This document shows, in pieces, positions 2,662 to 28,356 of a DNA stretch of 64,000 nucleotides; position 1 is the first letter of the stretch; each line of letters starts with the position of its first letter. The stretch covers positions 1 through 64,000 of the forward strand of contig CANSYK010000003.1 in assembly GCA_947651225.1 (NCBI GenBank), given 5' to 3'. This DNA is from an uncultured bacterium. Lineage in GTDB: Bacteria > Bacillota > Clostridia > Lachnospirales > Lachnospiraceae. A model generated the notes under the pieces. That model made no database searches, was not told the origin of the DNA, and saw nothing but the letters and a program-made list of their open reading frames with translations. Both the position numbers and the translations under genes were made by a program.

Positions 2662-2710
2662 CTAGAGCGTGTTTGAAAATTCATTCTTACAATTTTCAAA
2701 CACGCTCTAG
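2662..2710. repeat. Perfect 20-bp inverted repeat (AGAGCGTGTTTGA family, copy 1)
   Basis: The arms at 2662-2681 and 2691-2710 are perfect reverse complements (each contains AGAGCGTGTTTGAAAATT or its complement) around a 9-nt loop. It lies 25 nt after the pyrophosphorylase stop and could end or protect that transcript, but no U-run follows. A second palindromic copy is at 6511-6556 and a half copy at 28336-28356, so it is a dispersed repeat rather than a gene-specific terminator. Confidence 0.9.
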
Positions 2711-2870
2711 TATAATCCGATTTAATTACCTTATCTTTTGGTGAGTATGCTTTTTTGAGAGTGCAGGTGTAAAAACGTAGGCGCAGTGGGCTGCGCTGAG
2801 GATTTTACACTTGTGCTATCGGGAAAGCAGACCAGCAAAAGGTATGGTTAATTAAATTGGATTATACTAG
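2707..2870. mobile_element. 164-bp imperfect palindrome, MITE-like
   Basis: The stretch folds on itself over its whole length. The outer arms are 2711-2755 and about 2822-2866, beginning TATAATCC and ending GGATTATA. The middle arms are around GTGTAAAA and TTTTACAC, and the core is GCGCAG-TGGG-CTGCGC. The ends are flanked by CTAG on both sides (2707-2710 and 2867-2870), as a 4-bp target duplication would be, although CTAG is itself palindromic. There is no open reading frame inside. A non-autonomous miniature transposon fits best; a structured RNA gene is the alternative. Confidence 0.6.
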
Positions 2871-2916: not shown

Positions 2917-3816
2917 CTATTTTTCCAGGTAATGCTCCTCAAAATATTCTTCTGTAATCATTTCCAAATACTCTATAGATTCTTCTTTATATTCCTTTAA
3001 TAACATCGCACGGATATGCGCTGTTACTACCAGATCATTTTCACCCTCTGATACTCTGCTGTCTGACCAGTTCTCTACCATCGCATCTGTCAGGTTCTGG
3101 TCAAGCCATTCCATAATCTCTTTTGTCCGCTCTTCCTCCTTCGGAATCAACTCCTTTATTTTAGATGCTTTTACGACAGATACAACACCTGATATAAGAA
3201 ATCCTGCAAATAATGCAGCAATAATCCAGAATACTACAACATTATATTGAATTGGAATGATTTCTGTCTTAGAAAGGATAAGATAAACTGCGCCAATCAG
3301 TCCAAAAATTACAAAAGTAATGCCAGAAAGCTTCATATCACGGTATTTATCAGCATATTTTATATATTCCTTTTTATTGGAAGTATATAATAAATCTACT
3401 GTGTCTTCCGCAATTTCATCCGCAAGCAAAACATTTTCGCCTTCAGTTTCTCCCAAAAAAGCGGTATCCGTTTCACCCTGTTCTGCTTCTACTGCAACAT
3501 CAGCCTCAGATGTATCGCTCTCTTTTTCTTTTTCCTCTTCCTTTGCAAGAAGATAACCACGGAACAATCTTTCTGCCCTTTTTTCCATTGCCAGTGGGAC
3601 AGTAATTCGGAATCTGCCTTCCTCATCCCTTTCTTTTGCTACTTCTTTTATCCCTGAATAAGACAAATATTCCATAACCTCATCTGCTGTCTTCTCATCA
3701 CTTACTTCACAGACATCTACTGTCTCATCCACAGACCGTTCTACCAGTTCCGTTCCACAGTCCACACAAACCGTAACTCCTTTGCGGTACTCTATTTTAC
3801 ATTTTGGACACCACAT
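2917..3816 (-). CDS. Zinc-ribbon membrane protein of unknown function
   Basis: About 299 residues. An N-terminal zinc ribbon (CPKC and CVDC, within the first 25 residues) is followed by an acidic Glu-rich stretch, then two hydrophobic helices around residues 165-220 (SGITFVIFGLIGAVYLIL and WIIAALFAGFLISGVVSVV), and a charged C-terminal region with predicted helices. The ATG at 3816 lies 9 nt after AGGAGG; an upstream in-frame ATG overlaps that SD and is unlikely. A promoter is at 3900-3928. The stop codon lies in a 7-bp hairpin (2904-2920) that has no U-run. I recognise no named family. The ribbon may bind nucleic acid or protein near the membrane, but that is a guess. Confidence 0.8.
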   Translation of the reverse strand: MWCPKCKIEYRKGVTVCVDCGTELVERSVDETVDVCEVSDEKTADEVMEYLSYSGIKEVAKERDEEGRFRITVPLAMEKRAERLFRGYLLAKEEEKEKESDTSEADVAVEAEQGETDTAFLGETEGENVLLADEIAEDTVDLLYTSNKKEYIKYADKYRDMKLSGITFVIFGLIGAVYLILSKTEIIPIQYNVVVFWIIAALFAGFLISGVVSVVKASKIKELIPKEEERTKEIMEWLDQNLTDAMVENWSDSRVSEGENDLVVTAHIRAMLLKEYKEESIEYLEMITEEYFEEHYLEK

Positions 3817-3899
3817 GATAAATTTCCTCCTCATCTAAGTTGTCATACTGTTCCTGCTGTTCTTATCACACTTTGCTGCTGCCTCCTTGTTACAATAAT

Positions 3900-5853: not shown

Positions 5854-5902
5854 AAAAAGGTTTGAAGTTTATTCCTATTTCAAAAAAACTTCAAACCTTT
5901 TT
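5854..5902. terminator. Bidirectional rho-independent terminator between prfC and purE
   Basis: A 17-bp perfect stem (5854-5870 with 5886-5902, core GGTTTGAAGTTT) encloses a 15-nt loop. It has A-rich sequence before and T-rich sequence after the G/C core, so it can serve the convergent prfC and purE transcripts. Confidence 0.85.
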
Positions 5903-5962
5903 CATGTGATAGGAGTTTTTCCTGGAATAATTTCCCCATGCACCAGAAGGATTCAACCCCTT

Positions 5963-6510: not shown

Positions 6511-6556
6511 CTGTTAGAGCGTGTTTGAAAATTCATTCTCAAACACGCTCTAACAG
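6511..6556. repeat. Perfect 18-bp inverted repeat (AGAGCGTGTTTGA family, copy 2)
   Basis: The arms CTGTTAGAGCGTGTTTGA (6511-6528) and its complement (6539-6556) enclose a 10-nt loop. It shares the AGAGCGTGTTTGA core and the AAATTCATTC loop with copy 1 at 2662-2710. It lies between the hemW stop and the purE start and may work as a weak terminator or mRNA-end stabiliser for hemW. Confidence 0.9.
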
Positions 6557-28335: not shown

Positions 28336-28356
28336 AACTTTCAAACATGCTCTAAC
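28336..28356. repeat. Half copy of the AGAGCGTGTTTGA repeat
   Basis: The minus strand reads GTTAGAGCATGTTTGAAAGTT, matching one arm of the repeats at 2662-2710 and 6511-6556 with C to T at one core position. The second arm is missing. Its TAG supplies the stop codon of the gene at 28352-29308. Confidence 0.7.

Follow-up and report, generated by a model that had tools for sequence, protein, structure and literature searches.

A palindromic MITE with IS630-type ends and a conserved, strand-asymmetric core in Lachnospiraceae

Introduction

The first 64,000 nucleotides of contig CANSYK010000003.1 (assembly GCA_947651225.1) from an uncultured Lachnospiraceae bacterium, hereafter the window, contain a 164-bp palindrome at 2707-2870, between two convergent genes and directly against another hairpin repeat. 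This raised the questions of what the palindrome is, how it came to lie there and which of its parts is maintained. The first-pass annotation, made from sequence alone, had proposed a new MITE, plausibly derived from an IS5-type element, or a structured RNA. In a MITE the ends, needed for recognition by the transposase, are the part expected to be conserved; the unusual part of the element described here is a conserved, strand-specific core, found in elements whose ends have been exchanged many times.

Results

The palindrome is a single imperfect stem and a repeated mobile element

The two 80-nt arms of the palindrome (2707-2786 and 2791-2870) are separated by a 4-nt loop and are 71% complementary, and the predicted RNA fold (-91.7 kcal/mol) was well beyond that of shuffled sequences (-40.9 +/- 3.9 kcal/mol; z = -13), with 0 of 200 shuffles as good, so the annotated palindrome is real. 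The three concentric inverted repeats described within it are instead one continuous imperfect stem, in which 25 of the 79 positions in register are not Watson-Crick pairs. CTAG is seen at both edges as reported (2707-2710 and 2867-2870), and the ORF list of the window held no long ORF across the palindrome, in agreement with its described lack of coding capacity. The features of the locus are collected in Table 1.

Table 1. Features of the palindrome and its neighbourhood in the window.
Feature	Position	Strand	Remarks
Upstream gene, 412 aa	1398..2636	+	Converges on the element; no NCBIfam match at E 0.001
Second palindromic MITE family, TA-flanked: copy of 43 bp with internal deletion	2665..2707	.	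Ends GAGCGTGTTTGAAAATT
Left TA target duplication	2708..2709	.	Within CTAG 2707-2710; doubles as right TA of the neighbouring repeat
MITE, 158 bp	2710..2867	+ (best-folding strand, ...ACGTAGGCGCAGTGGGCTGCGCTGAGG...)	About 12 near-full copies; flanks differ
Left terminal inverted repeat GTATAATCCGATTTAATTACCTT	2710..2732	+	Same as the genome's IS630 element at its transposase-start end apart from one mismatch here; no mismatch in the family consensus
Conserved core (model R1, 102 nt)	2740..2841	+	110.9 bits on + strand
Central motif CGTAG-GCGCAG-TGGG-CTGCGC-TGAGG	2776..2801	+	Hairpin 2781-2796, purine-purine mismatches flanking
Right terminal inverted repeat GTATAATCCAATTTAATTA	2849..2867	-	No difference from the IS630 element at its transposase-stop end
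Right TA target duplication	2868..2869	.	Within CTAG 2867-2870; from sequence
Downstream gene, 305 aa, zinc-ribbon-like N-terminus	2917..3834	-	Converges on the element

A search of the window's own genome, the check for copies with different flanks that the annotation had advised, gave about 12 near-full copies of the mobile unit, 93-99% identical, in unrelated surroundings and in both orientations; further copies are longer through a central insertion, and others have internal deletions. The lack of any second copy, which the annotation had named as the outcome that would speak against its proposal, did not occur. With many copies at unrelated sites and no coding capacity, the MITE reading is supported, and we firmly classify the 158-bp palindrome as a MITE.

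An IS630-family element of the same genome shares both ends of the MITE

When copies were compared, the terminal G and C were found to travel with the element and the adjoining TA was constant, while the next outward base varied, being mostly C or G (which gives CTAG). Other flanks were TTA before the terminal G (L002 and L048), ATTA before it (L056) and TAT after the terminal C (L049), with TAA after the C at the full-length IS; for each side taken separately CTAG was counted in 48 of 91, by an automatic boundary call that at times took inner TAs. Because TA is constant and the outer base variable among copies, the duplication is TA, and CTAG is the preferred target context, not the 4-bp duplication that had been annotated.

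The full-length transposase element sharing these ends, whose existence the annotation had suggested checking, was found at G000:C5:80132-81516 in the window's own genome. It is 1,385 bp long and encodes a 428-aa transposase matching the IS630-family model NF033545 (E = 2.5e-60) and Pfam DDE_3. The MITE family consensus shares runs of 23 and 19 identical bases with its two ends: the transposase-start end begins GTATAATCCAATTTAATTACCTT and is repeated by the MITE left end (one mismatch in the window copy, none in the consensus), and the other end gives GTATAATCCAATTTAATTA, repeated exactly at the MITE right end. As the left end of the MITE is the transposase-start end, the MITE + strand has the same orientation as the transposase gene. 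Such a near-identical pair of IS and MITE ends was seen in this one genome only. Since the source with matching ends is of the IS630 family, the mobiliser appears to be IS630-type, and an IS5-type MITE with a 4-bp CTAG duplication was ruled out by the flank variation and the IS630 ends together. The IS630-family DDE transposase would act in trans, excising the MITE and pasting it into CTAG, and a MITE end placed beside C-TA or TA-G would recreate CTAG, so that elements would land against one another, as in the window.

The MITE adjoins a deleted copy of a second palindrome family

The hairpin repeat against which the palindrome lies is perfect over 20 bp (arms 2662-2681 and 2691-2710). It marks an internally deleted copy of a second family, a TA-flanked palindrome of 160 bp if full, represented in the window's own genome by over 40 copies, complete or partial, many of them at contig ends (sites include 2665-2707, 6514-6553 and 28336-28355 of the window, and L299, L306, L308 and other loci). 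The centre of this second family, GGTGTAGCGGGCTACATTGA, is similar to the 158-bp MITE core; its arms are unrelated. The insertion against another hairpin that the annotation had envisaged is upheld: the 158-bp MITE inserted at the right TA of the second-family copy. Further MITE copies lie against second-family copies at L004, L006 and L007 in the same genome and at L061 in the related genome G008.

In G008 both flanking genes are syntenic (the product of the upstream one is presumably UDP-N-acetylglucosamine pyrophosphorylase-like) and the spacer between them is about 41 bp, against 287 in the window, with neither repeat; this spacer differs otherwise too, so it is no base-exact empty site. 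Among the fetched loci, the search for base-exact related empty sites gave weak matches only, chiefly to unoccupied second-family copies. The orthologous spacer (G008:C204, L269, ~2230-2290) was also observed to hold a perfect bidirectional terminator-like hairpin, AAAGGGGGAATGC...GCATTCCCCCTTT, which is absent from the window's own genome.

One core is shared by elements with different ends

Other elements in the window's own genome and its relatives have the centre of the MITE in common and differ in their ends. A covariance model (R1) for the 102 nt at the centre was built from 23 elements and matched 42 of 299 sampled Lachnospiraceae genomes (E<=0.001) and 6 of 291 genomes of the class, own genome included (E<=1e-5), with one strong match outside the family. 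An exact 27-base pattern, which makes the centre of the loci so found conserved by construction, gave at least 117 stretches; among the matches listed, titles were almost all of Lachnospiraceae or its genera (Blautia, Coprococcus catus, Hespellia and [Ruminococcus] faecis being titled). A shorter central pattern occurred 53 times in the window's own genome; none of the 397 other genomes in a phylum sample had it, and its reversed-pattern control gave 0 matches. By these searches the core is confined almost entirely to Lachnospiraceae, and its central motif is nearly invariant across dozens of genera of gut bacteria.

Core-bearing elements are mostly 158-161 bp long although their ends have diverged, with end types that include GTATAATCC, GTACATCG/GTACAACG, GTGTACTGACA and AGGAACTGTA. 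IS630 elements with ends like three of these types were found in G000 (near-identical), G016 and G227 (partial), where the GTGTACTGACA MITEs come from genomes other than G227. A third family with ends AGGAACTGTAAATAAATT was observed on several contigs of the window's own genome (L034-L043), and as it carries the same core, one core is joined to two sets of ends within a single genome. The 213-bp copies L013 and L014 of the MITE family, and L036 of another family in that genome, carry a hairpin insertion of nearly the same sequence (TTCTACGCTCCGCTTCGGTCC...GTGCCACTGGCACTTAGCA) at the core centre, which indicates modules common to families; L073 has a hairpin insertion there too, of different sequence. 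Single central-motif matches in L349 (G031) and L350 (G134), at ~1501, have quite different surrounding arms and are possible distant members; the ends of L349 are still flanked by CTAG.

No match to plasmid or phage records was found. A 5.9-kb IMG/VR contig (IMGVR_UViG_3300012677_000087) is bounded by direct copies of the core (26-52 and 5888-5914) and encodes three consecutive serine-recombinase-like proteins; it is probably not viral but a piece of a chromosome or of a mobile element. Nine further IMG/VR contigs match the shorter motif; several of these matches lie within unrelated sequence and are likely due to chance.

Paired positions change together while mismatches stay fixed

To the covariance analysis of copies that the annotation had called for, 46 aligned cores were submitted, which were found with the covariance model and not chosen via the 27-base pattern. 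Among them 24 of 32 pairs had changed on both sides and 96.9% of cells were paired, a level that 0 of 500 shuffles reached and that fell to 34-49% when the partner was slid by 1-3 columns. Variable helices with compensatory changes lie beside fixed mismatches: in 41 non-redundant rows A.G, G.A, G.G and tandem U.G/G.U were at the same positions, with pair 7-92 alternating between A.G (17) and G.A (15). The annotated spread of mismatches along the stem is present, and falls short as a description in that the same positions bear the same types in divergent relatives. The hairpin GYGTAG-YGGG-CTACRY is common to the cores and fixed. In mostly Watson-Crick pairs G.U (79) exceeded A.C (31), and 14 of the 31 A.C were at one internal-loop pair. 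The structured-RNA features of the annotation were in this way borne out.

One strand of the core folds better than the other

As a palindrome whose arms are kept alike also covaries, strand asymmetry is stronger evidence than covariation. The window copy folds at -85.0 kcal/mol on the + strand versus -54.8 kcal/mol on the - strand, and the + strand folded better in 46 of 47 divergent elements (mean -18.3 kcal/mol). In the second family, with its related centre AGGTGTAGCGGGCTACATTGA and unrelated arms, the better-folding strand was the same in 14 of 14 (mean -30.7 kcal/mol). Simulated neutral decay of a perfect palindrome gave a mean of -0.2 (sd 10.2), with 1 of 400 decays as asymmetric as the window copy. 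These strand-energy counts are not independent because copies are related, the two families being nearest to independent tests. DNA energy parameters gave an asymmetry of the same sign, which leaves RNA as the simplest, though unproven, reading. Together, this modelling argues that selection acts on one strand in its folded form, RNA being the simplest case.

An ordinary IS630 MITE with a functionless inherited core, made asymmetric by chance mismatches in its ancestor, we consider unlikely. Every core-bearing element is related, so common ancestry can carry fixed G.U positions, and the 1 simulated decay in 400 had equalled the window copy; against this, the variable helices changed by compensatory replacement next to mismatches that did not change, G.U exceeded A.C even in mostly Watson-Crick pairs, the ends have diverged to match at least three IS630 end types, and the second family has the same asymmetry in spite of its unrelated arms.

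The selected molecule could alternatively be a folded DNA strand, formed in replication, transformation or conjugation intermediates and recognised by a recombinase or HUH nuclease in the manner of REP/RAYT or attC sites. A GTAG/GCAG or GGAG immediately 5' of the hairpin, like that of GTAG-tagged REPs (PMC3733652), and the agreement of the DNA parameters would fit; we nevertheless hold it improbable, as TA-flanked IS630-like ends, and not the REP itself, form the boundaries of the element, and core-bearing genomes such as G007, G008 and G026 have no Y1/RAYT-type transposases. A REP/RAYT system was accordingly rejected, Y1 transposases (Y1_Tnp) not tracking the core.

Copies are intergenic without a preferred sense orientation

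By a simple ORF caller, the + strand of copies between co-directional genes was antisense in 46 cases and sense in 28, and 24 other copies lay between convergent and 14 between divergent genes. The excess of antisense argues against a cis-acting mRNA role of the + strand, and a cis-acting RNA in fixed orientation gains no support from gene orientation. No internal promoter above the chance rate was found in the element. That the element is a transcription terminator or insulator between genes is improbable: the genes on its two sides do converge, a relative does have a terminator-like hairpin at this place, and its A-tract/hairpin/T-tract core yields one terminator-like match, but such matches were near the chance rate (found 1, expected 0.5), the fixed mismatches make the stem weaker, not stronger, and downstream of genes there was no preference for the sense strand.

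Discussion

Small palindromic MITEs with ends like those of an IS630 element in the same genome are known from RUP, which is intergenic, uses a TA-containing target and tends to be inserted within or close to other mobile elements (PMC2229807, PMC3049150). The MITE described here is similar, its ends matching an IS630 element of its own genome as those of RUP match IS630-Spn1 in pneumococcus (PMC2229807, PMC3049150). RUP, however, measures 107 bp and occurs almost exclusively in S. pneumoniae and S. mitis, whereas the present elements are ~158-160 bp and found in many genera, and the occurrence of one core in elements with different ends sets them apart from RUP as described. The BOX elements of S. 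pneumoniae are likewise mobile, modular repeats with a predicted RNA fold and conserved pairing (PMC3049150), but vary by repeated boxB modules (67-637 bp), whereas the present elements hardly vary in length and exchange their ends but keep their centre. GTAG-tagged REPs share a GTAG-like tetranucleotide adjoining a hairpin (PMC3733652) and differ in being 20-40 bp, the motif here lying within an IS630-type MITE. No Rfam 15 family matched above its gathering score; the best were plant miRNA models, far below theirs, and Rfam families have nothing in common with the element except being hairpins. In the literature searched, we found no description of these elements or of an end-swapping core.

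We regard as probable the explanation that the palindrome is an IS630-type non-autonomous MITE with an end-swapping, strand-specific core of ~100 nt, whose + strand would form a specific RNA fold that the host binds or processes. The transcribed + strand would take up this fold, a host factor, either a nuclease like RNase III or some other protein that binds RNA, would bind or process it, and the product might conceivably buffer or tune the neighbouring transcript or otherwise aid survival of the element. A bound or nuclease-processed RNA is, in our view, the most likely role of the core, with low confidence in any particular one. We lean, less strongly, towards a wider reading: a Lachnospiraceae-specific, transposon-borne structured RNA or folded-strand module under selection, built as a hairpin of one strand with fixed non-canonical pairs, whose carrier elements repeatedly swap ends to suit different IS630 transposases and which occurs in at least two ~160-bp palindrome families that are otherwise unrelated.

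The persistence of a folded core through changes of the ends implies that this core is of some worth to the element or to the host. The element may be the reason why assemblies of these genomes break repeatedly and why hairpins are nested in them. As a candidate transposon-carried non-coding RNA in major gut bacteria, it is concrete, abundant and open to test.
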